Shown here one piece after another: positions 943 to 32,935 of a DNA stretch of 32,935 bases (the first letter of the stretch is position 1; every line of letters starts with the position of its first letter). This DNA is from Utricularia gibba (taxonomy: Eukaryota; Streptophyta; Magnoliopsida; Lamiales; Lentibulariaceae): positions 1-32,935 of the forward strand of contig NEEC01000299.1 of assembly GCA_002189035.1 (NCBI GenBank), in the 5' to 3' direction. The position numbers were made by a program, and so were the translations under genes. A model generated the notes under the pieces. The model was not told where the DNA came from. It did no database searches and saw only the letters and a list, made by a program, of their open reading frames with translations.

Positions 943-948
943 CGATGT
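943..948 (+). other. 22-base deletion removing a HindIII site
   Basis: At the M3/M4 boundary the sequence reads GAAACGATGTAGG, where other boundaries have GAAACGAT, then the HindIII site, then GAAACTATGTAGG. The missing 22 bases lie between two imperfect 8-base direct repeats (GAAACGAT and GAAACTAT), as expected for a slippage or single-strand-annealing deletion. This is the only boundary in the window that has lost the whole site. Confidence 0.85.
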
Positions 949-8126: not shown

Positions 8127-9368
8127 AAGCTTTTCCTTGAGAAAACCCTTGAGGCAGCCTATTAAAACCAACGTTAATAAATGCATCAAGTTTTTTGCCG
8201 AGCTACAAATGACTATGGGCCCGAGCTCGACTCGACCTCCTACTCGATACCGTTGCCCACGAGAGCACCTTATCAAATATAAAGCATGCGGTTGAGAAAA
8301 CCATTTTGGGTGCTCATGAAATCCTAACTTCAATAACTGCATCACGATTTTCGTCGAGTAGGACCCGATGTGGCAAAGGAGTCAGTCAGAACCTTGGTCC
8401 GAACGAAGTTCCCAACGACATCACCCGCCCAGAAACGATAAGCTTTTCCTTGAGAAACTATGTAGGCAGCCTAATAGCCCGAACGTTAATAAATGCATCA
8501 ATATTTTTGTCGGGCTACAAATGACTCTGGGAGCGAGCCCGACTCGACCTTTGCCCGATACCGTGCCCCACTAGAGCGCCTCCTAAACTACAAAGCATGC
8601 GATTGAAAAAAGCATTTTGGGTGCTCATGAAATCCTAACTTCAATAACTGCATCACGATTTTCGTCGAGTAGGACCCGATGTGGCAAAGGAGTCAGACAG
8701 AACCTTGGGTCCGAACGAAGTTCCCAACGACATCACCCGCCAAAACGACAAGCTTTTCCTTGAGAAACTATGTAGGGAGCCTAATAAAGCCAACGTTAAT
8801 AAATGCATCAATTTTTTTGCCGGCTACAAATGACTCTGGGCCCGAGCTCGACTCGACCTCCTGCTCGATACCGTTGCCCCACGAGAGTGCCTTATCAAAT
8901 TAAAAGCATGCGGTTGAGAAAACCATTTTGGGTGCTCATGATATCCTAACTTCAATAACTGCATCACGATTTTCGTCGAGTAGGACCCGATGTGGCAAAG
9001 GAGTCAGACCGAACCTTGGTCAGAACGAAGTTCCAAAAGACATCACCGCCCAGAAACGACAGCTTTTCCTTGAGAACCATGTAGGTAGCCTATTAAAACC
9101 CAACGTTAATAAATGCATCATTTTTTGACAGGCTAAAAATGACTCTGGGCGAGCCCGACTCGACCTTTTGCCCGATACCGTGCCCCACTAGAGCGCCTCC
9201 TCAACTACAAAGCATGCGATTGAAAAAAGCATTTTGGGTGCTCATGAAATCCTAACTTCAATAACTGCATCACGATTTTCGTCGAGTAGGACCAGATTTG
9301 GCAAAGGAGACAGACCGAACCTTGGGTCAGAACGAAGTTCACAACGACATCACCCGCCCAAAAACGAC
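8127..9368 (+). repeat. 4-mer unit A-C-C'-D2 (M27-M30)
   Basis: The order is A (CCCTTGAGG), C (AATAGCCCG, AATATTTTTGTCGGGC), C' (AATAAAGCC) and D2 (CCATGTAGGTAGCC, TTTGACAGGC, CCAGATTTGG). The same order follows at once in M31-M34. The boundary at 9060 has CAGCTT instead of AAGCTT. Confidence 0.83.
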
Positions 9369-10614
9369 AAGCTTTTCCTTGAGAAAACCATTGAGGCAGC
9401 CTATTAAAACCAACCGTTAATAAATGCATCAAGTTTTTTGCCGAGCTACAAATGACTATGGGCCCGAGCTCGACTCGACCTCCTACTCGATACCGTTGCC
9501 CCACGAGAGCGCCTTATCAAATATAAAGCATGCGGTTGAGAAAACCATTTTGGGTGCTCATGAAATCCTAACTTCAATAACTGCATCACGATTTTCGTCG
9601 AGTAGGACCCGATGTGGCAAAGGAGTCAGTCAGAACCTTGGGTCCGAACGAAGTTCCCAACGACATCACCCGCCCAGAAACGATAAGCTTTTCCTTGAGA
9701 AACTATGTAGGCAGCCTAATAGCGCCGAACGTTAATAAATGCATCAATTTTTTGTCGGGCTACAAATGACTCTGGGAGCGAGCCCGACTCGACCTTTTGC
9801 CCGATACCGTGCCCCACTAGAGCGCCTCCTAAATACAAAGCATGCGATTGAAAAAGCATTTTGGGTGCTCATGAAATCCTAACTTCAATAACTGCATCAC
9901 GATTTTCGTCGAGTAGGACCCGATGTGGCAAAGGAGTCAGACAGAACCTTGGGTCCGAACGAAGTTCCCAACGACATCACCCGCCAGAAACGACAAGCTT
10001 TTCCTTGAGAAACTATGTAGGCAGCCTAAAAACCGAACGTTAATAAATGCATCAATTTTTTTGCCGGGCTACAAATGACTCTGGGCCCGAGCTCGACTCG
10101 ACCTCCTGCTCGATACCGTTGCCCCACGAGAGTGCCTTATCAAATTAAAGCATGCGGTTGAGAAAACCATTTTGGGTGCTCATGATATCCTAACTTCAAT
10201 AACTGCATCACGATTTTCGTCGAGTAGGACCCGATGTGGCAAAGGAGTCAGACCGAACCTTGGTCAGAACGAAGTTCCAAAAGACATCACCGCCCAGAAA
10301 CGACAAGCTTTTCCTTGAGAACCATGTAGGCAGCCTATTAAAACCCAACGTTAATAAATGCATCACTTTTTTTGACGGCTAAAATGACTCTGGGAGCGAG
10401 CCCGACTCGACCTTTTGCCCGATACCGTGCCCCACTAGAGCGCCTCCTCAATACAAAGCATGCGATTGAAAAAAGCATTTTGGGTGCTCATGAAATCCTA
10501 ACTTCAATAACTGCATCACGATTTTCGTCGAGTAGGACCAGATTTGGCAAAGGAGACAGACCGAACCTTGGGTCAGAACGAAGTTCACAACGACATCACC
10601 CGCCCAAAAACGAC
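9369..10614 (+). repeat. 4-mer unit A-C-C'-D2 (M31-M34)
   Basis: This tandem copy of the preceding 4-mer is the last part of super-unit copy 1. M31 has GCGCCTTATC, where most A monomers have GCACCTTATC. M33 has a shortened CCTAAAAACCG in place of AATAAAGCCG. Confidence 0.82.
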
Positions 10615-12175
10615 AAGCTTTTCCTTGAGAAAACCATTGAGGCAGCCTATTAAAACCAACGTTAATAAATGCATCAAGTTTTTTGCCGAGCTACAAATGA
10701 CTATGGGCCCGAGCTCGACTCGACCTCCTACTCGATACCGTTGCCCCACGAGAGCGCCTCTCAATATAAAGCATGCGGTTGAGAAAACCATTTTGGGTGC
10801 TCCTGACATCCTAACTTCAATAACTGCATCACGATTTTCGTCGAGTAGGACCCGATGTGGCAAAGGAGTCAGACCGAACTTGGGTCAGAACGAAGTTCAC
10901 AACGACATCACCCGCCCAAAAACGACAAGCTTTTCCTTGAGAAAACAATGTAGGCGCCTATTAAAACCCAACGTTAATTAATGCATCAAGTTTTTTGCCG
11001 AGCTACAAATGACTATGGGCCCGAGCTCGACTCGACCTCCTACTCGATACCGTTGCCCCACGAGAGCGCCTCCTCAAATATAAAGCATGCGGTTGAGAAA
11101 ACCATTTTGGGTGCTCATGACATCCTAACTTCAATAACTGCATCACGATTTTCGTCGAGTAGGACCCGATGTGGCAAAGGAGTCAGTCAGAACCTTGGGT
11201 CCGAACGAAGTTCCCAACGACATCACCCGCCCAGAAACGATAAGCTTTTCCTTGAGAAACTATGTAGGCAGCCTAATAGCGCCGAACGTTAATAAATGCA
11301 TCAATTTTTTGTCGGGCTACAAATGACTCTGGGAGCGAGCCCGACTCGACCTTTTGCCCGATACCGTGCCCCACTAGAGCGCCTCCTCAACTACAAAGCA
11401 TGCGATTGAAAAAGCCTTTTGGGTGCTCATGAAATCCTAACTTCAATAACTGCATCACGATTTTCGTCGAGTAGGACCAGATTTGGCAAAGGAGACAGAC
11501 CGAACCTTGGGTCGAACGAAGTTAACAACGACATCACCCGCCCAAAAACGACAAGCTTTTCCTTGAGAAACCATGTAGGCAGCCTATTAAAACCCAACGT
11601 TAAAAATGCATCAAGTTTTTTGCCGAGCTACAAATGACTCTGGGACCGAGCTCGACTCGACCTCCTGCTCGATACCGTTGCCCCACGAGAGTGCCTTATC
11701 AAATAAAAGCATGCGGTTGAGAAAACCATTTTGGGTGCTCATGATATCCTAACTTCAATAACTGCATCACGATTTTCGTCGAGTAGGACCCGATGTGGCA
11801 AAGGAGTCAGACCGAACCTATGGTCAGAACGAAGTTCCAAAAGACATCACCCGCCCAGAAACGACAGCTTTTCCTTGAGAACCATGTAGGTAGCCTATTA
11901 AAACCCAACGTTAATAAATGCATCACTTTTTTTGACGGCTAAAATGACTCTGGGAGCGAGCCCGACTCGACCTTTTGCCCGATACCGTGCCCCACTAGAG
12001 CGCCTCCTCAACTACAAAGCATGCGATTGAAAAAAGCATTTTGGGTGCTCATGAAATCCTAACTTCAATAACTGCATCACGATTTTCGTCGAGTAGGACC
12101 AGATTTGGCAAAGGAGACAGACCGAACCTTGGGTCAGAACGAAGTTCACAACGACATCACCCGCCCAAAAACGAC
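10615..12175 (+). repeat. 5-mer unit A-B-C-D1-D2 (M35-M39)
   Basis: This is the third copy of the 5-mer order, after M2-M6 and M22-M26. The B monomer's PacI octamer is at 10974-10981. The C monomer has GCCTTTTGGG and GTTAACAAC, as in M24. The site opening M39 reads CAGCTT. Confidence 0.83.
10927..11241 (+). repeat. Class B monomer M36 with PacI octamer
   Basis: It has ACAATGTAGGCG and TTAATTAA (10974-10981). It appears nearly identical to M23, 13 monomers upstream. Confidence 0.9.
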
Positions 12176-13419
12176 AAGCTTTTCCTTGAGAAAACCTTGA
12201 GGCAGCCTATTAAAACCAACCGTTAATAAATGCATCAAGTTTTTTGCCGAGCTACAAATGACTATGGGCCCGAGCTCGACTCGACCTCCTACTCGATACC
12301 GTTGCCCCACGAGAGCACCTTATCAAATATAAAGCATGCGGTTGAGAAAACCATTTTGGGTGCTCATGAAATCCTAACTTCAATAACTGCATCACGATTT
12401 TCGTCGAGTAGGACCCGATGTGGCAAAGGAGTCAGTCAGAACCTTGGTCCGAACGAAGTTCCCAACGACATCACCCGCCAGAAACGATAAGCTTTTCCTT
12501 GAGAAACTATGTAGGCAGCCTAATAGCCCGAACGTTAATAAATGCATCAATTTTTTGTCGGGCTACAAATGACTCTGGGAGCGAGCCCGACTCGACCTTT
12601 TGCCCGATACCGTGCCCCACTAGAGCGCCTCCTAAATACAAAGCATGCGTTGAAAAAAGCATTTTGGGTGCTCATGAAATCCTAACTTCAATAACTGCAT
12701 CACGATTTTCGTCGAGTAGGACCCGATGTGGCAAAGGAGTCAGACCGAACCTTGGGTCGAACGAAGTTCCAACGACATCACCCGCCAGAAACGACAAGCT
12801 TTTCCTTGAGAAACTATGTAGGCAGCCTAATAAAGCCGAACGTTAATAAATGCATCAATTTTTTTGCCGGGCTACAAATGACTCTGGGCCCGAGCTCGAC
12901 TCGACCTCCTGCTCGATACCGTTGCCCCACGAGAGTGCCTTATCAAATTAAAAGCATGCGGTTGAGAAAACCATTTTGGGTGCTCATGATATCCTAACTT
13001 CAATAACTGCATCACGATTTTCGTCGAGTAGGACCCGATGTGGCAAAGGAGTCAGACCGAACCTATGGTCAGAACGAAGTTCCAAAAGACATCACCGCCC
13101 AGAAACGACAAGCTTTTCCTTGAGAACCATGTAGGCAGCCTATTAAAACCCAACGTTAATAAATGCATCATTTTTTTGACAGGCTAAAAATGACTCTGGA
13201 GCGAGCCCGACTCGACCTTTTGCCCGATACCGTGCCCCACTAGAGCGCCTCCTCAACTACAAAGCATGCGATTGAAAAAGCATTTTGGGTGCTCATGAAA
13301 TCCTAACTTCAATAACTGCATCACGATTTTCGTCGAGTAGGACCAGATTTGGCAAAGGAGACAGACCGAACCTTGGGTCAGAACGAAGTTCACAACGACA
13401 TCACCCGCCCAAAAACGAC
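12176..13419 (+). repeat. 4-mer unit A-C-C'-D2 (M40-M43)
   Basis: This is the counterpart of M27-M30. It shares the shortened CCTTGAGG boundary region and TTGGTCCG in the A monomer, and AATAGCCCG in the C monomer. M42 has CTATGGTCAG where M29 has CTTGGTCAG. Confidence 0.82.
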
Positions 13420-14986
13420 AAGCTTTTCCTTGAGAAAACCATTGAGGCAGCCTATTAAAACCAACCGTTAATAAATGCATCAAGTTTTTTGCCGAGCTAC
13501 AAATGACTATGGGCCCGAGCTCGACTCGACCTCCTACTCGATACCGTTGCCCCACGAGAGCACCTTATCAAATATAAAGCATGCGGTTGAGAAAACCATT
13601 TTGGGTGCTCATGAAATCCTAACTTCAATAACTGCATCACGATTTTCGTCGAGTAGGACCCGATGTGGCAAAGGAGTCAGTCAGAACCTTGGGTCCGAAC
13701 GAAGTTCCCAACGACATCACCCGCCCAGAAACGATAAGCTTTTCCTTGAGAAACTATGTAGGCAGCCTAATAACCGAACGTTAATAAATGCATCAATTTT
13801 TTGTCGGGCTACAAATGACTCTGGGAGCGAGCCCGACTCGACCTTTTGCCCGATACCGTGCCCCACTAGAGCGCCTCCTAAATACAAAGCATGCGATTGA
13901 AAAAAGCATTTTGGGTGCTCATGAAATCCTAACTTCAATAACTGCATCACGATTTTCGTCGAGTAGGACCCGATGTGGCAAAGGAGTCAGACGAACCTTG
14001 GGTCCGAACGAAGTTCCCAACGACATCACCCGCCCAGAAACGACAAGCTTTTCCTTGAGAAACTATGTAGGCAGCCTATAAAGCCGAACGTTAATAAATG
14101 CATCAATTTTTTTGCCGGGCTACAATGACTCTGGGCCCGAGCTCGACTCGACCTCCTGCTCGATACCGTTGCCCCACGAGAGTGCCTTATCAAATATAAA
14201 GCATGCGGTTGAGAAAACCATTTTGGGTGCTCATGATATCCTAACTTCAATAACTGCATCACGATTTTCGTCGAGTAGGACCCGATGTGGCAAAGGAGTC
14301 AGAACGAACCTTTGGTCAGAACGAAGTTCCAAAAGACATCACCCGCCCAGAAACGACAAGCTTTTCCTTGAGAAACTATGTAGGCAGCCTAATAAAGCCG
14401 AACGTTAATAAATGCATCAATTTTTTTGCCGGGCTACAAATGACTCTGGGACCGAGCTCGACTCGACCTCCTGCTCGATACCGTTGCCCCACGAGAGTGC
14501 CTTATCAAATATAAAGCATGCGGTTGAGAAAACCATTTTGGGTGCTCATGATATCCTAACTTCAATAACTGCATCACGATTTTCGTCGAGTAGGACCCGA
14601 TGTGGCAAAGGAGTCAGACCGAACCTATGGTCAGAACGAAGTTCCAAAAGACATCACCGCCCAGAAACGACAAGCTTTTCCTTGAGAAACTATGTAGGCA
14701 GCCTAATAAAAGCCAACGTTAATAAATGCATCAATTTTTTTGCCGGGCTACAAATGACTCTGGGCCCGAGCTCGACTCGACCTCCTGCTCGATACCGTTG
14801 CCCCACGAGAGCGCCTTATCAAATATAAAGCATGCGATTGAAAAAAGCATTTTGGGTGCTCATGAAATCCTAACTTCAATAACTGCATCACGATTTTCGT
14901 CGAGTAGGACCAGATTTGGCAAAGGAGACAGACCGAACCTTGGGTCAGAACGAAGTTCACAACGACATCACCCGCCCAAAAACGAC
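13420..14986 (+). repeat. A-C-C'-C' block ending in a hybrid monomer (M44-M48)
   Basis: M44 (A), M45 (C), M46 and M47 (C') follow the 4-mer order up to the last position. M48 is a hybrid. Its half A is class C' (GGGCCCGAG, CTGCTCG, GCGCCTTATC) and its half B is the D2 type (GCGATTGAAAAAAGC, CCAGATTTGG, GAGACAG). The switch falls at about 14828, the boundary between the two halves. Confidence 0.8.
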
Positions 14987-17171
14987 AAGCTTTTCCTTGA
15001 GAAAACCATTGAGGCAGCCTATTAAAACCAACCGTTAATAAATGCATCAAGTTTTTTGCCGAGCTACAAATGACTATGGGCCCGAGCTCGACTCGACCTC
15101 CTACTCGATACCGTTGCCCCACGAGAGCACCTTATCAAATATAAAGCATGCGGTTGAGAAAACCATTTTGGGTGCTCATGAAATCCTAACTTCAATAACT
15201 GCATCACGATTTTCGTCGAGTAGGACCCGATGTGGCAAAGGAGTCAGACAGAACCTTGGGTCCGAACGAAGTTCCCAACGACATCACCCGCGCAGAAACG
15301 ACAAGCTTTTCCTTGAGAAAACATGTAGGCGCCTATTAAAACCCAACGTTAATTAATGCATCAAGTTTTTTGCCGAGCTACAAATGACTATGGGCCCGAG
15401 CTCGACTCGACCTCCTACTCGATACCGTTGCCCCACGAGAGCGCCTCCTCAAATATAAAGCATGCGGTTGAGAAAACCATTTTGGGTGCTCATGACATCC
15501 TAACTTCAATAACTGCATCACGATTTTCGTCGAGTAGGACCCGATGTGGCAAAGGAGTCAGTCAGAACCTTGGGTCCGAACGAAGTTCCCAACGACATCA
15601 CCCGCCCAGAAACGACAAGCTTTTCCTTGAGAAACTATGTAGGCAGCCTAATAGCGCCGAACGTTAATAAATGCATCAATTTTTTGTCGGGCTACAAATG
15701 ACTCTGGGAGCGAGCCCGACTCGACCTTTTGCCCGATACCGTTGCCCCACTAGAGCGCCTCCTAAATACAAAGCATGCGTTGAGAAAAAGCATTTTGGGT
15801 GCTCATGAAATCCTAACTTCAATAACTGCATCACGATTTTCGTCGAGTTGGACCCGATGTGGCAAAGGAGTCAGACGAACCTTGGGTCCGAACGAAGTTC
15901 CCAACGACATCACCCGCCCAGAAACGACAAGCTTTTCCTTGAGAAACTATGTAGGCAGCCTAATAAAAGCCGAACGTTAATAAATGCATCAATTTTTTTT
16001 GCCGGGCTACAAATGACTCTGGGCCCGAGCTCGACTCGACCTCCTGCTCGATACCGTTGCCCCACGAGAGTGCCTTATCAAATATAAAGCATGCGGTTGA
16101 GAAAACCATTTTGGGTGCTCATGATATCCTAACTTCAATAACTGCATCACGATTTTCGTCGAGTAGGACCCGATGTGGCAAAGGAGTCAGAACGAACCTT
16201 GGTCAGAACGAAGTTCCAAAAGACATCACCGCCCAGAAACGACAAGCTTTTCCTTGAGAAACTATGTAGGCAGCCTAATAAAGCCGAACGTTAATAAATG
16301 CATCAATTTTTTGCCGGGCTACAAATGACTCTGGGCCGAGCTCGACTCGACCTCCTGCTCGATACCGTTGCCCCACGAGAGTGCCTTATCAAATATAAAG
16401 CATGCGGTTGAGAAAACCATTTTGGGTGCTCATGAATCCTAACTTCAATAACTGCATCACGATTTTCGTCGAGTAGGACCCGATGTGGCAAAGGAGTCAG
16501 ACCGAACCTATGGTCAGAACGAAGTTCCAAAAGACATCACCCGCCCAGAAACGACAAGCTTTTCCTTGAGAAACTATGTAGGCAGCCTATTAAAGCCGAA
16601 CGTTAATAAATGCATCAATTTTTTTGCCGGGCTACAAATGACTCTGGGACCGAGCTCGACTCGACCTCCTGCTCGATACCGTTGCCCCACGAGAGCGCCT
16701 TATCAATATAAAGCATGCGGTTGAGAAAACCATTTTGGGTGCTCATGAATCCTAACTTCAATAACTGCATCACGATTTTCGTCGAGTAGGACCCGATGTG
16801 GCAAAGGAGTCAGACCGAACCTTGGTCAGAACGAAGTTCCAAAAGACATCACCCGCCCAGAAACGACAAGCTTTTCCTTGAGAAACCATGTAGGCAGCCT
16901 ATTAAAACAACGTTAATAAATGCATCAATTTTTTTGCCGGCTACAAATGACTCTGGGCGAGCCGACTCGACCTTTGCCCGATACCGTGCCCACTAGAGCG
17001 CCTCCTCAACTATAAAGCATGCGATTGAAAAACATTTTGGGTGCTCATGAAATCCTAACTTCAATAACTGCATCACGATTTTCGTCGAGTAGGACCAGAT
17101 TTGGCAAAGGAGACAGACCGAACCTTGGGTCAGAACGAAGTTCACAACGACATCACCCGCCCAAAAACGAC
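14987..17171 (+). repeat. Transition block A-B-C-C'-C'-C'-D2-like (M49-M55)
   Basis: It begins like a third copy of the 5-mer (A, B with PacI octamer at 15349-15356, C) and then runs into three C' monomers and a D2-like one with many small deletions (GGGCGAGCC, CTTTGCCC, GAAAAACATT; M55 is 304 bases). This is where clear higher-order structure ends and where the shortened variants CATGAATCC and CTTGGTCAG become common. Confidence 0.78.
15303..15616 (+). repeat. Class B monomer M50, last with PacI octamer
   Basis: It has ACATGTAGGCGCC (one A short) and TTAATTAA at 15349-15356. No later monomer carries the octamer. Later B-like monomers with ACAATGTAGG (for example at 22442, 23060, 24593 and 25210) have TTAATAAA or TTAATAAT instead. 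Confidence 0.88.
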
Positions 17172-19654
17172 AAGCTTTTCCTTGAGAAAACCATTGAGGC
17201 AGCCTATTAAAACCAAACGTTAATAAATGCATCAAGTTTTTTGCCGAGCTACAAATGACTATGGGCCCGAGCTCGACTCGACCTCCTGCTCGATACCGTT
17301 GCCCCACGAGAGCCCTTATCAAATATAAAGCATGCGGTTGAGAAAACCATTTTGGGGTGCTCATGAAATCCTAACTTCAATAACTGCATCACGATTTTCG
17401 TCGAGTAGGACCCGATGTGGCAAAGGAGTCAGACCGAACCTTGGTCAGAACGAAGTTCAAACGACATCACCCGCCCAAAAACGACAAGCTTTCCTTGAGA
17501 AACCATTAGGCAGCCTATTAAAACCAACGTTAATAAATGCATCAATTTTTTTGCCGGCTACAAATGACTATGGGCCCGAGCTCGACTCGACCTCCTGCTC
17601 GATACCGTTGCCCCACGAGAGCGCCTTATCAAATATAAAGCATGCGGTTGAGAAAACCATTTTGGGTGCTCATGAAATCCTAACTTCAATAACTGCATCA
17701 CGATTTTCGTCGAGTAGGACCCGATGTGGCAAAGGAGTCAGACCGAACCTTGGTCAGAACGAAGTTCCAACGACATCACCCGCCCAAAACGACAAGCTTT
17801 TCCTTGAGAAAACCATGTAGGCAGCCTATTAAAACCAACGTTAATAAATGCATCAAGTTTTTTGCCGAGCTACAAATGACTATGGGCCCGAGCTCGACTC
17901 GACCTCTACTCGATACCGTGCCCCACGAGAGCGCCTTATCAAATATAAAGCATGCGGTTGAGAAAACCATTTTGGGTGCTCATGAATCCTAACTTCAATA
18001 ACTGCATCACGATTTTCGTCGAGTAGGACCCGATGTGGCAAAGGAGTCAGACCGAACCTTGGGTCAGAACGAAGTTCCAACGACATCACCCGCCAGAAAC
18101 GACAAGCTTTTCCTTGAGAAACTATGTAGGCAGCCTAATAAAGCCGAACGTTAATAAATGCATCAATTTTTTTTGCCGGGCTACAAATGACTCTGGGCCC
18201 GAGCTCGACTCGACCTCCTGCTCGATACCGTTGCCCCACGAGAGTGCCTTATCAAATATAAAGCATGCGGTTGAGAAAACCATTTTGGGTGCTCATGAAT
18301 CCTAACTTCAATAACTGCATCACGATTTTCGTCGAGTAGGACCCGATGTGGCAAAGGAGTCAGACCGAACCTATGGTCAGAACGAAGTTCCAAAAGACAT
18401 CACCCGCCCAGAAACGACAAGCTTTTCCTTGAGAAACCATGTAGGCAGCCTATTAAAACCAACGTTAATAAATGCATCAATTTTTTTGCCGGCTACAAAA
18501 TGACTCTGGGCGAGCTCGACTCGACCTCCTGCCGATACCGTTGCCCCACGAGAGCGCCTCCTCAAATATAAAGCATGCGGTTGAGAAAACATTTTGGGTG
18601 CTCATGAAATCCTAACTTCAATAACTGCATCACGATTTTCGTCGAGTAGGACCAGATGTGGCAAAGGAGTCAGACCGAACCTTGGGTCAGAACGAAGTTC
18701 ACAACGACATCACCCGCCAAAAACGACAAGCTTTTCCTTGAGAAACCATTAGGCAGCCTATTAAAACCAACGTTAATAAATGCATCAAGTTTTTTGCCGA
18801 GCTACAAATGACTATGGGCCCGAGCTCGACTCGACCTCCTACTCGATACCGTTGCCCCACGAGAGCACCTTATCAAATATAAAGCATGCGGTTGAGAAAA
18901 CCATTTTGGGTGCTCATGAATCCTAACTTCAATAACTGCATCACGATTTTCGTCGAGTAGGACCCGATGTGGCAAAGGAGTCAGACCGAACCTTGGGTCA
19001 GAACGAAGTTCCAAAAGACATCACCCGCCAGAAACGACAAGCTTTTCCTTGAGAAACTATGTAGGCAGCCTATAAAGCCGAACGTTAATAAATGCATCAA
19101 TTTTTTGCCGGGCTACAAATGACTCTGGGCCGAGCTCGACTCGACCTCCTGCTCGATACCGTTGCCCACGAGAGTGCCTTATCAAATATAAAGCATGCGT
19201 TGAGAAAACATTTTGGGTGCTCATGAATCCTAACTTCAATAACTGCATCACGATTTTCGTCGAGTAGGACCCGATGTGGCAAAGGAGTCAGACCGAACCT
19301 TGGTCAGAACGAAGTTCCAAAAGACATCACCCGCCAAAACGACAAGCTTTTCCTTGAGAAACCATGTAGGCAGCCTATTAAAACCCAACGTTAATAAATG
19401 CATCAATTTTTTTGCCGGCTACAAATGACTCTGGGCGAGCCCGACTCGACCTTTTGCTCGATACCGTGCCCCACGAGAGCGCCTCCTCAAATATAAAGCA
19501 TGCGGTTGAGAAAACCATTTTGGGTGCTCATGAAATCCTAACTTCAATAACTGCATCACGATTTTCGTCGAGTAGGACCAGATTTGGCAAAGGAGACAGA
19601 CCGAACCTTGGGTCAGAACGAAGTTCACAACGACATCACCCGCCCAAAAACGAC
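17172..19654 (+). repeat. Blended monomers, 8 copies (M56-M63)
   Basis: This block starts with a class A monomer (CCATTGAGG) after the D2-like M55, and closes with another CCAGATTTGG monomer, M63. In between, class markers mix freely: CCATTAGG (a hybrid of CCATTGAGG and CCATGTAGG), TTGCCGGC, TTCCAACG and CATGAATCC. No multi-monomer period is obvious by eye. The site opening M57 is followed by one T fewer than usual. Confidence 0.75.
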
Positions 19655-22600
19655 AAGCTTTTCCTTGAGAAACCATTGAGGCAGCCTATTAAAACCAACG
19701 TTAATAAATGCATCAAGTTTTTTGCCGAGCTACAAATGACTATGGGCCCGAGCTCGACTCGACCTCCTGCTCGATACCGTTGCCCCACGAGAGCGCCTTA
19801 TCAAATATAAAGCATGCGGTTTGAAAAAACATTTTGGGTGCTCATGAAATCCTAACTTCAATAACTGCATCACGATTTTCGTCGAGTAGGACCCGATGTG
19901 GCAAAGGAGTCAGACCGAACCTTGGGTCAGAACGAAGTTCAAACGACATCACCCGCCCAAAAACGACAAGCTTTTCCTTGAGAAACCATTAGGCAGCCTA
20001 TTAAAACCAACGTTAATAAATGCATCAATTTTTTTGCCGAGCTACAAATGACTATGGGCCCGAGCTCGACTCGACCTCCTTCGATACCGTTGCCCCACGA
20101 GAGCACCTTATCAAATATAAAGCATGCGGTTGAGAAAACCATTTTGGGTGCTCATGAAATCCTAACTTCAATAACTGCATCACGATTTTCGTCGAGTAGG
20201 ACCCGATGTGGCAAAGGAGTCAGACCGAACCTTGGGTCAGAACGAAGTTCCAACGACATCACCCGCCAGAAACGACAAGCTTTTCCTTGAGAAACATGTA
20301 GGCAGCTATTAAAACCAACGTTAATAAATGCATCAAGTTTTTTTGCCGGCTACAAATGACTCTGGGCCCGAGCTCGACTCGACCTCCTGCTCGATACCGT
20401 TGCCCCACGAGAGCGCCTCCTCAAATATAAAGCATGCGGTTGAGAAAACCATTTTGGGTGCTCATGAATCCTAACTTCAATAACTGCATCACGATTTTCG
20501 TCGAGTAGGACCCGATGTGGCAAAGGAGTCAGACCGAACCTTGGGTCAGAACGAAGTTCCAAGACATCACCCGCCAGAAACGACAAGCTTTTCCTTGAGA
20601 AACTATGTAGGCAGCCTATAAAAACCAACGTTAATAAATGCATCAATTTTTTTTGCCGGGCTACAAATGACTCTGGGCCGAGCTCGACTCGACCTCCTGC
20701 TCGATACCGTTGCCCCACGAGAGCCTTATCAAATATAAAGCATGCGGTTGAGAAAACCATTTTGGGTGCTCATGAATCCTAACTTCAATAACTGCATCAC
20801 GATTTTCGTCGAGTAGGACCCGATGTGGCAAAGGAGTCAGACCGAACCTTGGTCAGAACGAAGTTCCAAAAGACATCACCCGCCCAGAAACGACAAGCTT
20901 TTCCTTGAGAAACCATGTAGGCAGCCTATTAAAACCAACGTTAATAAATGCATCAATTTTTTGCCGGCTACAAATGACTCTGGGCGAGCTCGACTCGACC
21001 TTTGCTCGATACCGTTGCCCCACGAGAGCGCCTCCTCAAATATAAAGCATGCGGTTGAAAAACCATTTTGGGTGCTCATGAATCCTAACTTCAATAACTG
21101 CATCACGATTTTCGTCGAGTAGGACCCGATGTGGCAAAGGAGTCAGACCGAACCTTGGTCAGAACGAAGTTCAAAAGACATCACCCGCCCAGAAACGACA
21201 AGCTTTTCCTTGAGAAACCATGTAGGCAGCCTATTAAAACCCAACGTTAATAAATGCATCAATTTTTTGCCGGCTACAAATGACTCTGGGCCGAGCTCGA
21301 CTCGACCTCCTGCTCGATACCGTTGCCCCACGAGAGCGCCTCCTCAAATATAAAAGCATGCGGTTGAGAAAACCATTTTGGGTGCTCATGAATCCTAACT
21401 TCAATAACTGCATCACGATTTTCGTCGAGTAGGACCCGATGTGGCAAAGGAGTCAGACCGAACCTATGGTCAGAACGAAGTTCAAAAGACATCACCCGCC
21501 CAGAAACGACAAGCTTTTCCTTGAGAAACCATGTAGGCAGCCTATTAAAACCCAACGTTAATAAATGCATCAATTTTTTGCCGGCTACAAATGACTCTGG
21601 GCGAGCTCGACTCGACCTCCTGCTCGATACCGTTGCCCCACGAGAGCGCCTTATCAAATATAAAGCATGCGGTTGAGAAAACCATTTTGGGTGCTCATGA
21701 AATCCTAACTTCAATAACTGCATCACGATTTTCGTCGAGTAGGACCCGATGTGGCAAAGGAGTCAGACCGAACCTTGGGTCAGAACGAAGTTCACAACGA
21801 CATCACCCGCCCAAAAACGACAAGCTTTTCCTTGAGAAAACCATTAGGCAGCCTATTAAAACCAACGTTAATAAATGCATCAAGTTTTTTGCCGAGCTAC
21901 AAATGACTATGGGCCCGAGCTCGACTCGACCTCCTGCTCGATACCGTTGCCCCACGAGAGCGCCTTATCAAATATAAAGCATGCGGTTGAGAAAACATTT
22001 TGGGTGCTCATGAAATCCTAACTTCAATAACTGCATCACGATTTTCGTCGAGTAGGACCCGATGTGGCAAAGGAGTCAGACCGAACCTTGGTCAGAACGA
22101 AGTTCCAAACGACATCACCCGCCCAAAAACGACAAGCTTTTCCTTGAGAAAACCATTAGGCAGCCTATTAAAACCAACGTTAATAAATGCATCAAGTTTT
22201 TTGCCGAGCTACAAATGACTATGGGCCGAGCTCGACTCGACCTCCTACTCGATACCGTTGCCCCACGAGAGCACCTTATCATATAAAGCATGCGGTTGAG
22301 AAAACCATTTTGGGTGCTCATGAAATCCTAACTTCAATAACTGCATCACGATTTTCGTCGAGTAGGACCCGATGTGGCAAAGGAGTCAGACCGAACCTTG
22401 GTCAGAACGAAGTTCCCAACGACATCACCCGCAGAAACGACAAGCTTTTCCTTGAGAAAACAATGTAGGCAGCTATTAAAACCCAACGTTAATAAATGCA
22501 TCAAGTTTTTTGCCGAGCTACAAATGACTATGGGCCCGAGCTCGACTCGACCTCCTACTCGATACCGTTGCCCACGAGAGCGCCTCCTCAAATATAAAGC

Positions 22601-23973
22601 ATGCGGTTGAGAAAACCATTTTGGGTGCTCATGAATCCTAACTTCAATAACTGCATCACGATTTTCGTCGAGTAGGACCCGATGTGGCAAAGGAGTCAGA
22701 CCGAACCTTGGTCAGAACGAAGTTCCAACGACATCACCCGCCCAGAAACGACAAGCTTTTCCTTGAGAAACCATGTAGGCAGCCTATTAAAACCAACGTT
22801 AATAAATGCATCAATTTTTTTGCGGCTACAAATGACTCTGGGCCGAGCTCGACTCGACCTCTGCTCGATACCGTTGCCCACGAGAGCACCTTATCAAATA
22901 TAAAGCATGCGGTTGAGAAAACCATTTTGGGTGCTCATGAATCCTAACTTCAATAACTGCATCACGATTTTCGTCGAGTAGGACCCGATGTGGCAAAGGA
23001 GTCAGACCGAACCTTGGGTCAGAACGAAGTTCACAACGACATCACCGCCCAAAAACGACAAGCTTTTCCTTGAGAAAACAATGTAGGCAGCTATTAAAAC
23101 CAACGTTAATAATGCATCAAGTTTTTTGCCGAGCTACAAATGACTATGGGCCGAGCTCGACTCGACCTCCTGCTCGATACCGTTGCCCCACGAGAGCGCC
23201 TTATCAAATATAAAGCATGCGGTTGAGAAAACCATTTTGGGTGCTCATGATCCTAACTTCAATAACTGCATCACGATTTTCGTCGAGTAGGACCCGATGT
23301 GGCAAAGGAGTCAGACAGAACCTTGGGTCAGAACGAAGTTCCAACGACATCACCCGCCAGAAACGACAAGCTTTCCTTGAGAAACTATGTAGGCAGCCTA
23401 AAAACCCAACGTTAATAAATGCATCAATTTTTTGCGGGCTACAAATGACTCTGGGAGCGAGCTCGACTCGACCTTTTGCTCGATACCGTGCCCCACGAGA
23501 GCGCCTCCTCAAATATAAAGCATGCGGTTGAAAAAACATTTTGGGTGCTCATGAAATCCTAACTTCAATAACTGCATCACGATTTTCGTCGAGTAGGACC
23601 CGATGTGGCAAAGGAGTCAGACCGAACCTTGGGTCAGAACGAAGTTCCAACGACATCACCCGCCCAAAACGACAAGCTTTTCCTTGAGAAACCATTAGGC
23701 ATTAAAACCAAACGTTAATAAATGCATCAATTTTTTGAGCTACAAATGACTCTGGGCCGAGCTCGACTCGACCTCCTGCTCGATACCGTTGCCCACGAGA
23801 GCGCCTTATCAAATATAAAGCATGCGGTTGAGAAAACATTTTGGGTGCTCATGAATCCTAACTTCAATAACTGCATCACGATTTTCGTCGAGTAGGACCC
23901 GATGTGGCAAAGGAGTCAGACCGAACCTTGGGTCAGAACGAAGTTCACAACGACATCACCCGCCCAAAACGAC
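19655..23973 (+). repeat. Blended monomers, 14 copies (M64-M77)
   Basis: It begins with a class A monomer. The CCAGATTTGG block is absent throughout. Fronts alternate irregularly among CCATTAGG, CCATGTAGG, CTATGTAGG and ACAATGTAGG. Short forms dominate: GGGCCGAG or GGGCGAG, CATGAATCC, TTCCAACG or TTCAAAAG, and TTGCCGGC. M77 is only 300 bases and has lost about five bases between GGC and ATTAAAACC, plus part of the TTTGCCGAGC segment. Confidence 0.75.
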
Positions 23974-26442
23974 AAGCTTTTCCTTGAGAAAACCATTGAG
24001 GCAGCCTATTAAAACCAACGTTAATAAATGCATCAAGTTTTTTGCCGAGCTACAAATGACTATGGGCCCGAGCTCGACTCGACCTCCTACTCGATACCGT
24101 TGCCCCACGAGAGCGCCTTATCAAATATAAAGCATGCGGTTGAGAAAACCATTTTGGGTGCTCATGAATCCTAACTTCAATAACTGCATCACGATTTTCG
24201 TCGAGTAGGACCCGATGTGGCAAAGGAGTCAGACCGAACCTTGGGTCAGAACGAAGTTCCAACGACATCACCCGCCAGAAACGACAAGCTTTTCCTTGAG
24301 AAACTATGTAGGCAGCCTATTAAAACCAACGTTAATAAATGCATCAATTTTTTTGCCGGGCTACAAATGACTCTGGCCCGAGCTCGACTCGACCTCCTGC
24401 TCGATACCGTTGCCCCACGAGAGCACCTTATCAAATAAAAGCATGCGGTTGAGAAAACCATTTTGGGTGCTCATGATCCTAACTTCATAACTGCATCACG
24501 ATTTTCGTCGAGTAGGACCCGATGTGGCAAAGGAGTCAGACCGAACCTTGGGTCAGAACGAAGTTCCAACGACATCACCCGCCCAAAACGACAAGCTTTT
24601 CCTTGAGAAAACAATGTAGGCAGCTATTAAAACCCAACGTTAATAAATGCATCAATTTTTTGCCGGGCTACAAATGACTCTGGGCCCGAGCTCGACTCGA
24701 CCTCCTGCTCGATACCGTTGCCCCACGAGAGCGCCTTATCAAATATAAAGCATGCGGTTGAGAAAACCATTTTGGGTGCTCATGAAATCCTAACTTCAAT
24801 AACTGCATCACGATTTTCGTCGAGTAGGACCCGATGTGGCAAAGGAGTCAGACCGAACCTTGGGTCAGAACGAAGTTCCAACGACATCACCCGCCAGAAA
24901 CGACAAGCTTTTCCTTGAGAAACTATGTAGGCAGCCTAAAACCCAACGTTAATAAATGCATCAATTTTTTTTGCGGGCTACAAATGACTCTGGGCCCGAG
25001 CTCGACTCGACCTCCTGCTCGATACCGTTGCCCCACGAGAGCACCTTATCAAATATAAAGCATGCGGTTGAGAAAACCATTTTGGGTGCTCATGAATCCT
25101 AACTTCAATAACATCACGATTTTCGTCGAGTAGGACCGATGTGGCAAAGGAGTCAGACCGAACCTTGGGTCAAACGAAGTTCCAACGACATCACCCGCCC
25201 AAAAACGACAAGCTTTTCCTTGAGAAACAATGTAGGCAGCTATTAAAACCCAACGTTAATAAATGCATCAAGTTTTTTGCCGAGCTACAAATGACTATGG
25301 GCCCGAGCTCGACTCGACCCTACTCGATACCGTTGCCCCACGAGAGCGCCTTATAAAGCATGCGGTTGAGAAAACCATTTTGGGTGCTCATGAAATCCTA
25401 ACTTCAATAACTGCATCACGATTTTCGTCGAGTAGGACCCGATGTGGCAAAGGAGTCAGACCGAACCTTGGGTCAGAACGAAGTTCCAACGACATCACCC
25501 GCCCAGAAACGACAAGCTTTTCCTTGAGAAAATGTAGGCAGCCTATAAACCAACGTTAATAAATGCATCAATTTTTTGCCGGGCTACAAATGACTCTGGG
25601 AGCCGAGCCCGACTCGACCTCCTGCCCGATACCGTTGCCCCACGAGAGCGCCTCCTCAAATATAAAGCATGCGATTGAGAAAACCATTTTGGGTGCTCAT
25701 GAAATCCTAACTTCAATAACTGCATCACGATTTTCGTCGAGTAGGACCCGATGTGGCAAAGGAGTCAGACCGAACCTTGGGTCAGAACGAAGTTCCAACG
25801 ACATCACCCGCCCAGAAACGACAAGCTTTTCCTTGAGAAACTATGTAGGCAGCCTATAAAACCAACGTTAATAAATGCATCAATTTTTTTTGCCGGGCTA
25901 CAAATGACTCTGGGCCCGAGCTCGACTCGACCTCCTGCTCGATACCGTTGCCCCACGAGAGTGCCTTATCAAATATAAAGCATGCGGTTGAGAAAACCAT
26001 TTTGGGTGCTCATGAATCCTAACTTCAATAACTGCATCACGATTTTCGTCGAGTAGGACCCGATGTGGCAAAGGAGTCAGACCGAACCTTGGTCAGAACG
26101 AAGTTCCAAAGACATCACCCGCCCAGAAACGACAAGCTTTTCCTTGAGAAACCATGTAGGCAGCCTATAAAACCAACGTTAATAAATGCATCAATTTTTT
26201 TGCCGGGCTACAAATGACTCTGGGCCGAGCTCGACTCGACCTCCTGCTCGATACCGTTGCCCCACGAGAGCGCCTTATCAAATATAAAGCATGCGGTTGA
26301 GAAAACCATTTTGGGTGCTCATGAATCCTAACTTCAATAACTGCATCACGATTTTCGTCGAGTAGGACCGATGTGGCAAAGGAGTCAGACCGAACCTTGG
26401 TCAGAACGAAGTTCCAAAAGACATCACCCGCCCAGAAACGAC
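23974..26442 (+). repeat. Blended monomers, 8 copies (M78-M85)
   Basis: This block starts with CCATTGAGG in M78 and then alternates CTATG and ACAATG-like fronts (M79-M82), with short forms throughout. The otherwise constant box is damaged at two places: AACTTCATAACTG near 24481, and AATAACATCACG near 25110, which has lost three bases of ACTGCATCACG. Confidence 0.75.
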
Positions 26443-26731
26443 AAGCTTTTCCTTGAGAAACATGTAGGCAGCCTAAAAACCAACGTTAATAAATGCATCA
26501 ATTTTTTGCCTAAAAATGACTCTGGCGAGCCCGACTCGACCTATACCGTGCCCCACTAGAGCGCCTCCTCAATACAAAGCATGCGATTGAAAACATTTTG
26601 GGTGCTCATGAAATCCTAACTTCAATAACTGCATCACGATTTTCGTCGAGTAGGACCAGATTTGGCAAAGGAGACAGACCGAACCTTGGGTCAGAACGAA
26701 GTTCACAACGACATCACCCGCCCAAAACGAC
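26443..26731 (+). repeat. Shortest monomer, M86 (289 bases)
   Basis: It has lost bases at several places compared with other D2-like copies: CCTAAAAACC, TTTGCCTAAAAATG (GGGC missing), CTGGCGAGCCC, and CGACCTATACCG, which lacks about eight bases of the TTTTGCCCG segment. It still keeps the HindIII site, the constant box and the CCAGATTTGG block. Confidence 0.85.
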
Positions 26732-29508
26732 AAGCTTTTCCTTGAGAAAACCATTGAGGCAGCCTATTAAAACCAACGTTAATAAATGCATCAAGTTTTT
26801 TGCCGAGCTACAAATGACTATGGGCCCGAGCTCGACTCGACCTCCTACTCGATACCGTTGCCCCACGAGAGCACCTTATCAAATATAAAGCATGCGGTTG
26901 AGAAAACCATTTTGGGTGCTCATGAAATCCTAACTTCAATAACTGCATCACGATTTTCGTCGAGTAGGACCCGATGTGGCAAAGGAGTCAGACAAACCTA
27001 TGGTCAGAACGAAGTTCCAAACATCACCCGCCAGAAACGACAAGCTTTTCCTTGAGAAACCATGTAGGCAGCCTATTAAAACCCAACGTTAATAAATGCA
27101 TCATTTTTTTGCAGGCTAAAATGACTCTGGGAGCGAGCCCGACTCGACCTTTTGCCCGATACCGTGCCCCACTAGAGCGCCTTCAAATACAAAGCATGCG
27201 ATTGAAAAACATTTTGGGTGCTCATGAAATCCTAACTTCAATAACTGCATCACGATTTTCGTCGAGTAGGACCAGATTTGGCAAAGGAGTCAGACCGAAC
27301 CTTGGGTCAGAACGAAGTTCCAACGACATCACCGCCAAAAAACGACAAGCTTTTCCTTGAGAAACCATTGAGGCAGCCTATTAAAACCAACCGTTAATAA
27401 ATGCATCAATTTTTTTGCCGGGCTACAAATGACTCTGGGCCCGAGCTCGACTCGACCTCCTGCTCGATACCGTTGCCCCACGAGAGTGCCTTATCAAATA
27501 TAAAGCATGCGGTTGAGAAAACCATTTTGGGTGCTCATGATTCCTAACTTCAAAACTGCATCACGATTTTCGTCGAGTAGGACCCGATGTGGCAAAGGAG
27601 TCAGACCGAACCTATGGTCAGAACGAAGTTCCAAAAGACATCACCCGCCCAGAAACGACAAGCTTTTCCTTGAGAAACTATGTAGGCAGCCTAATAAACC
27701 GAACGTTAATAATGCATCAATTTTTTTGCCGGGCTACAAATGACTCTGGGCCGAGCTCGACTCGACCCCTGCTCGATACCGTTGCCCCACGAGAGCGCCT
27801 TATCAAATATAAAGCATGCGGTTGAGAAAACCATTTTGGGTGCTCATGAATCCTAACTTCAATAACTGCATCACGATTTTCGTCGAGTAGGACCAGATTG
27901 GCAAAGGAGACAGACCGAACCTTGGGTCAGAACGAAGTTCACAACGACATCACCCGCCCAAAAAACGACAAGCTTTTCCTTGAGAAAACTTGAGGCAGCC
28001 TATTAAAACCAACGTTAATAAATGCATCAAGTTTTTTGCCGAGCTACAAATGACTATGGGCCCGAGCTCGACTCGACCTCCTGCTCGATACCGTTGCCCC
28101 GAGAGCACCTTATCAAATATAAAGCATGCGGTTGAGAAAACCATTTTGGGTGCTCATGAATCCTAACTTCAATAACTGCATCACGATTTTCGTCGAGTAG
28201 GACCCGATGTGGCAAAGGAGTCAGACCGAACCTTGGTCAGAACGAAGTTCCAACGACATCACCCGCCCAGAAACGACAAGCTTTTCCTTGAGAAACCATG
28301 TAGGCAGCCTATTAAAACCAACGTTAATAAATGCATCACTTTTTTTGCAGGCTAAAAATGACTCTGGGCGAGCCGACTCGACCTTTGCCCGATACCGTGC
28401 CCCACTAGAGCGCCTCCTCAAATACAAGCATGCGATTGAAAAACATTTTGGGTGCTCATGAAATCCTAACTTCAATAACTGCATCACGATTTTCGTCGAG
28501 TAGGACCAGATTTGGCAAAGGAGACAGACCGAACCTTGGGTCAGAACGAAGTTCACAACGACATCACCCGCCCAAAAACGACAAGCTTTTCCTTGAGAAA
28601 ACCATTGAGGCAGCCTATTAAAACCAACCGTTAATAAATGCATCAAGTTTTTTGCCGAGCTACAAATGACTATGGGCCCGAGCTCGACTCGACCTCCTAC
28701 TCGATACCGTTGCCCCACGAGAGCACCTTATCAAATATAAAGCATGCGGTTGAGAAAACCATTTTGGGTGCTCATGATCCTAACTTCAATAACTGCATCA
28801 CGATTTTCGTCGAGTAGGACCCGATGTGGCAAAGGAGTCAGACCGAACCTTGGTCAGAACGAAGTTCCAACGACATCACCCGCCAGAAACGACAAGCTTT
28901 TCCTTGAGAAACTATGTAGGCAGCCTAAAAAAACGTTAATAAATGCATCAATTTTTTGCGGGCTAAAAATGACTCTGGGAGCTCGACTCGACCTCTGCTC
29001 GATACCGTTGCCCCACGAGAGCGCCTTATCAAATATAAAGCATGCGATTGAAAAAACATTTTGGGTGCTCATGAAATCCTAACTTCAATAACTGCATCAC
29101 GATTTTCGTCGAGTAGGACCAGATTTGGCAAAGGAGACAGACCGAACCTTGGGTCAGAACGAAGTTCACAACGACATCACCCGCCCAAAAACGACAAGCT
29201 TTTCCTTGAGAAACCATTGAGGCAGCCTATTAAAACCAACCGTTAATAAATGCATCAAGTTTTTTGCCGAGCTACAAATGACTATGGGCCCGAGCTCGAC
29301 TCGACCTCCTACTCGATACCGTTGCCCCACGAGAGCACCTTATCAAATATAAAGCATGCGGTTGAGAAAACCATTTTGGGTGCTCATGAATCCTAACTTC
29401 AATAACTGCATCACGATTTTCGTCGAGTAGGACCCGATGTGGCAAAGGAGTCAGACCGAACCTTGGGTCAGAACGAAGTTCCAACGACATCACCCGCCCA
29501 GAAACGAC
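26443..29508 (+). repeat. Five tandem dimers, D2-like plus A (M86-M95)
   Basis: Monomers alternate strictly here. The even-numbered ones carry CCAGATT (26652, 27268, 27890, 28504, 29119) and the odd-numbered ones carry the class A front (CCATTGAGG or the shortened AACTTGAGG). The period is about 615 to 622 bases apart from the first pair, which is 599 because M86 is short. This is the only run in the window with a two-monomer higher-order period. Confidence 0.82.
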
Positions 29509-31360
29509 AAGCTTTTCCTTGAGAAACTATGTAGGCAGCCTAATAACCAACGTTAATAAATGCATCAATTTTTTTTGCCGGGCTACAAATGACTCTGGGC
29601 CCGAGCTCGACTCGACCTCCTGCTCGATACCGTTGCCCCACGAGAGCGCCTTATCAAATATAAAGCATGCGGTTGAGAAAACCATTTTGGGTGCTCATGA
29701 AATCCTAACTTCAATAACTGCATCACGATTTTCGTCGAGTAGGACCCGATGTGGCAAAGGAGTCAGACCGAACCTTGGTCAGAACGAAGTTCACAACGAC
29801 ATCACCGCCCAAAAACGACAAGCTTTTCCTTGAGAAACCATGTAGGCATATTAAAACCCAACGTTAATAATGCATCAAGTTTTTTGCCGAGCTACAAATG
29901 ACTATGGGCCGAGCTCGACTCGACCTCTCGATACCGTTGCCCCACGAGAGCGCCTTCAAATATAAAGCATGCGGTTGAGAAAACCATTTTGGGTGCTCAT
30001 GAATCCTAACTTCAATAACTGCATCACGATTTTCGTCGAGTAGGACCCGATGTGGCAAAGGAGTCAGACCGAACCTTGGTCAGAACGAAGTTCCAAACGA
30101 CATCACCCGCCCAGAAACGACAAGCTTTTCCTTGAGAAACTATGTAGGCAGCCTATAAACCCAACGTTAATAAATGCATCAATTTTTTGCGGGCTACAAA
30201 TGACTCTGGGCGAGCCCGACTCGACCTTTGCCCGATACCGTGCCCCACTAGAGCGCCTCCTAAAATACAAAGCATGCGATTGAAAAAACATTTTGGGTGC
30301 TCATGAAATCCTAACTTCAATAACTGCATCACGATTTTCGTCGAGTAGGACCCGATGTGGCAAAGGAGTCAGACCGAACCTTGGGTCAGAACGAAGTTCC
30401 CAACGACATCACCCGCCAAAAACGACAAGCTTTTCCTTGAGAAACCATGTAGGCAGCCTATAAAACCAACGTTAATAAATGCATCAATTTTTTTTTTGCC
30501 GGCTACAAATGACTATGGGCCCGAGCTCGACTCGACCTCCTGCTCGATACCGTTGCCCCACGAGAGTGCCTTATCAAATATAAAGCATGCGGTTGAGAAA
30601 ACCATTTTGGGTGCTCATGAATCCTAACTTCAATAACTGCATCACGATTTTCGTCGAGTAGGACCCGATGTGGCAAAGGAGTCAGACCGAACCTATGGTC
30701 AGAACGAAGTTCCAAAAGACATCACCCGCCCAGAAACGACAAGCTTTTCCTTGAGAAACTATGTAGGCAGCCTAATAAAGCCGAACGTTAATAAATGCAT
30801 CAATTTTTTTGCCGGGCTACAAATGACTCTGGGCCGAGCTCGACTCGACCTCCTGCTCGATACCGTTGCCCCACGAGAGTGCCTTATCAAATATAAAGCA
30901 TGCGGTTGAGAAAACATTTTGGGTGCTCATGATATCCTAACTTCAATAACTGCATCACGATTTTCGTCGAGTAGGACCCGATGTGGCAAAGGAGTCAGAC
31001 CGAACCTATGGTCAGAACGAAGTTCCAAAAGACATCACCCGCCCAGAAACGACAAGCTTTTCCTTGAGAAACCATGTAGGCAGCCTATAAAACCAACGTT
31101 AATAAATGCATCAATTTTTTTGCAGGGCTAAAAATGACTCTGGGCGAGCCCGACTCGACCTGCCGATACCGTTGCCCCACTAGAGCGCCTCCTCAAATAC
31201 AAAGCATGCGATTGAGAAAACCATTTTGGGTGCTCATGAAATCCTAACTTCAATAACTGCATCACGATTTTCGTCGAGTAGGACCAGATTTGGCAAAGGA
31301 GACAGACCGAACCTTGGGTCAGAACGAAGTTCACAACGACATCACCCGCCCAAAAACGAC
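29509..31360 (+). repeat. Blended monomers, 6 copies (M96-M101)
   Basis: Fronts alternate CTATG and CCATG (M96 to M101). M100 is a well-preserved C' monomer with AATAAAGCCG. M101 has CCAGATTTGG and is followed by a class A monomer, as elsewhere. A run of about nine T's follows GCATCAA in M99 near 30487, where six to eight is usual. Confidence 0.75.
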
Positions 31361-32904
31361 AAGCTTTTCCTTGAGAAAACCATTGAGGCAGCCTATTAAA
31401 ACCAACCGTTAATAAATGCATCAAGTTTTTTGCCGAGCTACAAATGACTATGGGCCCGAGCTCGACTCGACCTCCTACTCGATACCGTTGCCCCACGAGA
31501 GCACCTTATCAAATATAAAGCATGCGGTTGAGAAAACCATTTTGGGTGCTCATGAATCCTAACTTCAATAACTGCATCACGATTTTCGTCGAGTAGGACC
31601 CGATGTGGCAAAGGAGTCAGACAGAACCTTGGGTCAGAACGAAGTTCCCAACGACATCACCCGCCAAAACGACAAGCTTTTCCTTGAGAAACTATGTAGG
31701 CAGCCTAAAAACCCAACGTTAATAAATGCATCAATTTTTGCCGGGCTACAAATGACTCTGGGCCCGAGCTCGACTCGACCTCCTGCTCGATACCGTTGCC
31801 CCACGAGAGCGCCTTATCAAATATAAAGCATGCGGTTGAGAAAACCATTTTGGGTGCTCATGAAATCCTAACTTCAATAACTGCATCACGATTTTCGTCG
31901 AGTAGGACCCGATGTGGCAAAGGAGTCAGACCGAACCTTGGGTCAGAACGAAGTTCCAACGAAATCACCGCCCAAAAACGACAAGCTTTTCCTTGAGAAA
32001 CATGTAGGCAGCCTATTAAAACCAACGTTAATAATGCATCAAGTTTTTTGCCGAGCTACAAATGACTATGGGCCGAGCTCGACTCGACCTCCTGCTCGAT
32101 ACCGTTGCCCACGAGAGCGCCTTATCAAATATAAAGCATGCGGTTGAGAAACCATTTTGGGTGCTCATGAATCCTAACTTCAATAACTGCATCACGATTT
32201 TCGTCGAGTAGGACCCGATGTGGCAAAGGAGTCAGACCGAACCTTGGGTCAGAACGAAGTTCCAACGACATCACCCGCCCAGAAACGACAAGCTTTTCCT
32301 TGAGAAACCATGTAGGCAGCCTATTAAAACCAACGTTAATAAATGCATCAATTTTTTGCCGGGCTACAAATGACTCTGGGCCGAGCCCGACTCGACCTGC
32401 CGATACCGTGCCCCACGAGAGCGCCTCCTCAAATATAAAGCATGCGATTGAAAAAACATTTTGGGTGCTCATGAAATCCTAACTTCAATAACTGCATCAC
32501 GATTTTCGTCGAGTAGGACCCGATGTGGCAAAGGAGTCAGACCGAACCTTGGGTCAGAACGAAGTTCCCAACGACATCACCGCCAAAAACGACAAGCTTT
32601 TCCTTGAGAAACCATGTAGGCAGCCTATTAAAACCAACGTTAATAAATGCATCAATTTTTTTGCCGAGCTACAAATGACTATGGGCCCGAGCTCGACTCG
32701 ACCTCCTGCTCGATACCGTTGCCCCACGAGAGTGCCTTATCAAATATAAAGCATGCGGTTGAGAAAACCATTTTGGTGCTCATGAATCCTAACTTCAATA
32801 ACTGCATCACGATTTTCGTCGAGTAGGACCCGATGTGGCAAAGGAGTCAGACGAACCTATGGTCAGAACGAAGTTCCAAAAGACATCACCCGCCCAGAAA
32901 CGAC
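31361..32904 (+). repeat. Blended monomers, 5 copies (M102-M106)
   Basis: It begins with a well-preserved class A monomer (CCATTGAGG, CCAACCG). M103 is CTATG-fronted, and M104-M106 have ACATG or CCATG fronts. M105 switches from a CAAATATAAAG half A to a GCGATTGAAAAAAC half B at about 32438, again at the half boundary. Confidence 0.75.
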
Positions 32905-32935
32905 AAGCTTTTCCTTGAGAAACTATGTAGGCAGC
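32905..32935 (+). repeat. Partial monomer M107
   Basis: This 31-base start of a further monomer has the CTATGTAGG front. The array continues beyond the window. Confidence 0.9.

Follow-up and report, generated by a model that had tools for sequence, protein, structure and literature searches.

Does the second half of a satellite array in the Utricularia gibba assembly reflect the evolution of the array or the way it was assembled? The question is raised by contig C37 of an assembly that comprises 516 contigs and 100,091,633 bases. The window, that is, the whole stretch of DNA that was analysed, is this entire contig (32,935 bases); it consists of an uninterrupted array of about 106 monomers of about 314 bp. 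Judging from the sequence, the shortened monomers that are found from about 16.24 kb on are very probably a product of the assembly, namely a collapsed consensus from which undecided bases have been dropped.

For the alignment of the monomers, a cyclic profile of 315 columns was derived from the first part of the array (part A); of the 107 rows, 106 were retained, of which 52 belong to part A and 54 to the second part (part B). A column was considered variable when at least two of the part A monomers, and no fewer than 4% of them, carry a second base, which is the case for 60 of the 315 columns; since these columns are set by part A monomers only, the definition is independent of part B. We read the whole of part B as collapsed consensus.

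Table 1. Coordinates of the array, of its two parts and of single features in contig C37.
Feature	Coordinates	Strand	Remarks
Head-to-tail satellite array, whole contig	1..32935	+	Tandem Repeats Finder: period 314, 106.1 copies
First part (A), 52 monomers: class variants at full length, with classes that recur regularly	1..16241	+	
Second part (B), 54 monomers: single bases lost at class-variable columns, diversity halved, periodicity undetected	16242..32935	+	
First CATGAATCC in its 29-base context within the contig	16426..16454	+	First place in this contig among the matches listed
Shortest monomer, about 289 bp (end inferred)	26441..26729	+	Two gaps, of 4 columns (at column 75) and of 8 columns (at column 115)

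Every shortened motif named in the original prediction exists and is concentrated in the second half of the contig. The counts in 1–15,928 and 15,929–32,935, respectively, are 0 and 25 for CATGAATCC, 0 and 3 for CATGATCC, 1 and 18 for TTCCAACG, 0 and 2 for TTCAAACG, 0 and 2 for TTCAAAAG, 2 and 14 for GGGCCGAG, 1 and 8 for GGGCGAG, 5 and 16 for CTTGGTC, 0 and 6 for CCATTAGG, and 0 and 5 for TTGAAAAAACATT. Some full class forms fall in step (GGGAGCGAG from 14 to 2, TTCCCAACG from 20 to 4, TTGAAAAAAGCATT from 9 to 0), and others do not (GGGCCCGAG 26 and 26, CTATGGTC 8 and 8, CCATTGAGG 8 and 8). Read by eye, GGGCGAG, CCATTAGG and CTTGGTC could each be the longest common subsequence of their class forms, which does not appear to hold for TTCAAAAG or for the form with GAAAAAAC. 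Apart from the shortest monomer, gaps of at least four columns occur in the part B monomers starting at 23672, 25208, 28892 and 29818.

The number of deletions rises from 158 in part A (3.0 per monomer) to 374 in part B (6.9 per monomer). Over ten hot columns, which were chosen because they lose bases in part B, the best change point is the monomer starting at 16,242, where the rate goes from 0.52 to 3.28 deletions per monomer (matched in none of 500 permutations). The series of all short deletions, in which no hot columns are selected, changes at 16,866, from 2.46 to 5.12 per monomer (again none of 500 permutations). The losses had been proposed to start at 15,929; their presence is confirmed, and the change point of the hot columns lies about 300 bases later.

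After subtraction of the part A rate, 76% of the excess deletions lie on the 60 variable columns. The expected share is 22% (SD 4%) when deletions are placed uniformly and 25% (SD 5%) when they are weighted by homopolymers, based on 20 simulated runs of each kind that were realigned in the same way. This bears out the prediction that missing bases cluster at the class-variable columns: as in a collapsed repeat, the errors coincide with the differences between copies (76% versus 22–25%). It had also been claimed that columns which do not vary rarely lose a base. This holds for the rate, since in part B 1.0% of the cells are lost at the 255 non-variable columns compared to 7.1% at the 60 variable ones; in counts, 143 of the 374 deletions of part B are on non-variable columns and 231 on variable ones. 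Homopolymer context adds to the effect: runs of three lose 15.7% at variable columns and 2.6% at non-variable columns.

Which base is lost could be asked at the 44 variable columns that passed a frequency and a prediction filter (16 of the 60 failed one of them), by predicting the class base of each cell from linked markers. Gaps are found at 137 of 660 cells where the predicted base is the minority one and at 152 of 1716 where it is the majority one (Mantel–Haenszel odds ratio 3.2), and the gap rate is higher at the predicted minority in 24 of the 29 usable columns. Some columns behave in the opposite way, for example column 290 (4 of 14 minority versus 20 of 40 majority cells), and column by column the loss of the minor allele is not correlated with the gain of gaps (rho 0.10, p 0.45).

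The diversity of the monomers changes as well. The heterozygosity summed over the variable columns is 22.6 in part A and 11.0 in part B, and it is lower in part B at 55 of the 60 columns. By halves, the values are 21.1 and 20.1 in part A, and 9.1 and 12.0 in part B: heterozygosity is level within part A and low in both halves of part B, so that the drop sits at the boundary. Minority variants are thus lost, as they are in collapsed repeats. The order of the classes recurs in part A, where the best match of a 3-kb piece is about 13 monomers away with 98.7% identity, and none of 500 permutations reaches the class periodicity of this part. On the contrary, no class periodicity was detected in part B taken as a whole (105 of 500 permutations reach its value), so that the regular recurrence expected of a higher-order repeat is found in part A only. 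The second half of part B alone gives a lag contrast of 0.41 at lag 15, which is similar to that of part A. The linkage between columns (cross-validated kappa) is 0.75 in part A versus 0.37 in part B when whole parts are used; the difference is smaller by halves (0.58 and 0.69 versus 0.44 and 0.54).

Off-class substitutions number 50 in part A and 8 in part B. Their change point is at 2,808, and 31 of the 50 lie in the first nine monomers and 8 of the 50 in the last 26 monomers of part A. The idea that private substitutions vanish at the boundary was therefore rejected; they fade well before it and provide little evidence of an averaging at 16 kb. The first nine monomers (1–2808) carry 3.4 off-class substitutions per monomer, compared to 0.28 in all later ones, as expected if the edge of the array were nearby or if this segment were older.

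The gap patterns hardly repeat. Over eleven hot columns, 52 distinct patterns are found in the 54 monomers of part B, and the similarity of the patterns along part B shows no periodicity (354 of 500 permutations are as good). Within a monomer, there is a slight linkage between the gap states (mean r2 0.032 versus 0.019, none of 1000 permutations), which could result from mixed piles as well as from real descent. A locus assembled twice was also sought, by comparing 3-kb pieces of the window (to base 31,500) with 16 other satellite pieces of the assembly and with the window itself; considering the best two matches of each piece, none of the pieces starting at or after 16,501 has a match above about 96% identity.

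The consensus step was simulated by taking as truth 50 of the 52 part A monomers (two of unusual length were dropped), mixing them at random and calling a consensus. Mixed piles that are called by majority after indel-only alignment reproduce the observed excess by column with a Pearson coefficient of 0.54–0.73 (four settings), or 0.36–0.66 within the variable columns only; they give 4.4–9.4 deletions per monomer, 63–74% of which are at variable columns. The pooled version of this simulation reaches 0.72, which none of 5000 permutations equalled when columns were shuffled only among those alike in variability and homopolymer length. The indel-only simulation in the four settings over-predicts columns 66, 21 and 116, under-predicts columns 178, 37, 97 and 306, and never yielded CATGATCC, TTCAAACG, TTCAAAAG or GAAAAAACATT. 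A plurality rule that keeps mismatches gives, with error-free monomers, a coefficient of 0.05–0.20 (−0.10 to 0.07 within the variable columns) and 0.9–2.6 deletions per monomer. The Spearman coefficient separates the rules little, since the ranges overlap (0.38–0.55 for indel-only alignment, 0.30–0.47 for plurality).

Noise of the kind found in long reads was then added to the piles. Unmixed piles show no match by column whichever of three rules is used (Pearson −0.11 to −0.17). Fully mixed piles reach 0.62 and 0.70 with graph-type rules that split or keep mismatches, respectively, and 0.42 with plurality; at 60% mixing the match is 0.18–0.51. The fully mixed piles contain 2.7–3.3 short deletions per monomer (2.9–3.3 with the graph-type rules), compared to 5.7 observed in part B and 2.6 in part A, so that the noisy simulations reach about half of the observed deletion rate. 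A plurality consensus was rejected as a poor match (0.05–0.20 without errors, 0.42 with noise): choosing the commonest base keeps a base at the disputed columns, and the consensus step must therefore drop any base that lacks a majority. The original prediction, in which a consensus is called from reads of different copies, is retained as regards the mixed pile and is refined in this respect. That a mismatch has to be split into an insertion and a deletion was rejected as a requirement, since the noisy rule that keeps mismatches matched equally well (0.70 versus 0.62); scoring a substitution as an insertion plus a deletion is one way to drop the base, and others exist. Mixing explains which columns are hit, not the exact rate, rule or program.

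The satellite is abundant in the assembly: two patterns of 29 and 30 bases identify at least 3903 monomers, which amounts to roughly 1.2 Mb. The shortened form GTGCTCATGAATCCTAACTTCAATAACTG (CATGAATCC in its 29-base context) occurs in 1183 places, and the form with the base in 2720; the 1183 shortened copies all come from one assembly, and are not independent support. Sixteen further satellite pieces (L003–L018) provide 481 monomer rows, or about 12% of the 3903 places. These pieces tend to lack bases at the same columns, with Pearson coefficients of 0.34–0.90 with part B, 0.29–0.58 with part A and 0.33–0.77 with the simulation. Nineteen units were compared, four in the window and 15 of the 16 other pieces (L003 is too small; 20 of the 470 rows of the 15 pieces were dropped as too diverged or gapped). 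Units with less diversity lose more bases at hot columns (rho −0.59, p 0.007); class linkage is weakly related to these losses (rho −0.39, p 0.10), and the order contrast is unrelated to them (rho −0.09). Segments of eight monomers (63 in all) show more losses the fewer off-class substitutions they contain (rho −0.39, p 0.001).

In contig C213 (3.70 Mb), the array starts beside non-satellite DNA. The nine outermost rows have 0–1 losses at variable columns and the next two have 11 and 7; this is the single anchored edge that was tested, and the monomers at an edge are also naturally diverged. The losses in C213 do not grow steadily with the distance from unique DNA, being heavy at 3,489–3,510 kb and lighter at 3,540–3,550 kb. 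The long array runs to the end of the contig (3,704,653); nine pieces were sampled from 3,556 kb onward, and all of them proved to be satellite. None of the 14 other small satellite contigs of recorded size exceeds 59,273 bases. By eye, what appears to be the end of an LTR (a G-rich tract and TGTTGG...CAACA) abuts a diverged monomer at L003:5800–6200 (about 3,485,800–3,486,200 of C213), and in L004 and L005 (about 3,497–3,502 kb) the array is interrupted by strongly diverged or rearranged monomers with up to 59 off-class bases. The assembly as a whole contains the plant telomere repeat TTTAGGG in 670 places and TTAGGC in none; among the places listed, telomere repeats stand at the start of C1, C2 and C3. 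It also has 140 matches to the plant NAM domain, of which 14 control genomes have none, as fits a land plant and, given this number, a flowering plant. Putative centromeric regions of U. gibba are described as lacking satellite repeats in a passage of PMC8333044; given that statement, a satellite of about 1.2 Mb in this species merits a look.

It may be asked whether the shortened monomers are real hybrids, in which single-base deletions at or beside class-variable sites were spread by unequal exchange or conversion. GTGCTCATGAATCCTAACTTCAATAACTG is indeed common in the assembly (1183 places versus 2720 with the base), the same columns tend to be short in other satellite contigs (Pearson 0.34–0.90 with part B in 16 pieces), the gaps are weakly linked, and off-class substitutions are already few before the boundary, so that on that account part B need not be averaged sequence. 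On the contrary, duplication should copy whole gap patterns, whereas the 54 monomers have 52 different patterns without periodicity; independent deletions would not favour the predicted minority base, a preference seen in 24 of the 29 usable columns; none of the 52 part A monomers contains CATGAATCC; and a second cause would be needed for diversity and periodicity to fall at this very position. Real hybrids are therefore improbable. It is extremely improbable that mismatched heteroduplexes of unequal monomers were repaired by dropping the disputed base, in which case exchange within the array would erode it one base at a time at class-variable sites and would also erase the diversity of the classes.

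Neither does plain residual sequencing error account well for the data. Few or unpolished reads under the second half would leave random and homopolymer indels with no mixing of copies; the effect of homopolymer context on the loss rate agrees with this, and the sharp change within the contig fits a switch of the underlying reads. Random deletions, however, put 22–25% of the losses on variable columns, where 76% is observed, and noisy piles that are not mixed give no match by column (−0.11 to −0.17 with three rules), so that plain homopolymer or random indels were rejected on both the deletion nulls and the simulation of unmixed noise. This explanation, which we regard as very improbable, also leaves the fall in diversity and the preference for the minority base unexplained.

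The collapsed consensus first proposed for this locus is supported by the column specificity, the preference for the minority base, the halved diversity, the undetected periodicity and the simulated mixed pile; from the assembly sequence, it is strongly supported, short of proven. It jointly explains which columns are hit, why the losses start abruptly, why diversity falls and why the gap patterns do not recur. No new biology is needed, and the artefact is of a known kind. Reads from different but similar monomers of a long satellite array would have been piled together, and the consensus step would have dropped the positions where no class had a majority, leaving a sequence close to what the classes share. 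The same averaging would have removed the minority class variants and the order of the classes, and later polishing probably left the result unrepaired, since reads there would not map uniquely.

If this is true, the second half of the contig is unusable for studies of monomer phylogeny, copy number, higher-order repeats or repeat evolution, as are probably some stretches of the assembly's other satellite contigs, and the shortened monomers would pass wrongly as a new variant of the satellite. The artefact is mainly valuable as a warning. To score its signature (gaps at the columns that differ between copies, lowered diversity, a sharp start and gap patterns that do not recur), an assembly is sufficient and no reads are needed. 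No description of base-dropping at mixed columns was found in the literature searched, including passages of PMC5411767, PMC6868369, PMC7804095 and PMC6356754.

How does this array compare with known systems? Higher-order-repeat arrays are a known organisation of satellites in plants and animals, with head-to-tail monomers in classes that recur regularly; part A is organised in the same way, whereas part B taken as a whole shows no detected recurrence. PBDAGCon and FalconSense build a graph of read alignments, in which majority-type scoring can omit a disputed base. This omission resembles the simulated result; the noisy simulations, however, give about half of the observed rate. Both tools are named in passages of PMC7804095 and PMC6356754 as long-read self-correction. 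The repeats that collapse in overlap-layout-consensus assemblies, as described in a passage of PMC6868369, are alike in that similar copies are piled up and that diversity and structure are lost; there the collapse usually concerns length and copy number, whereas here bases are lost one by one at the columns that differ between copies.
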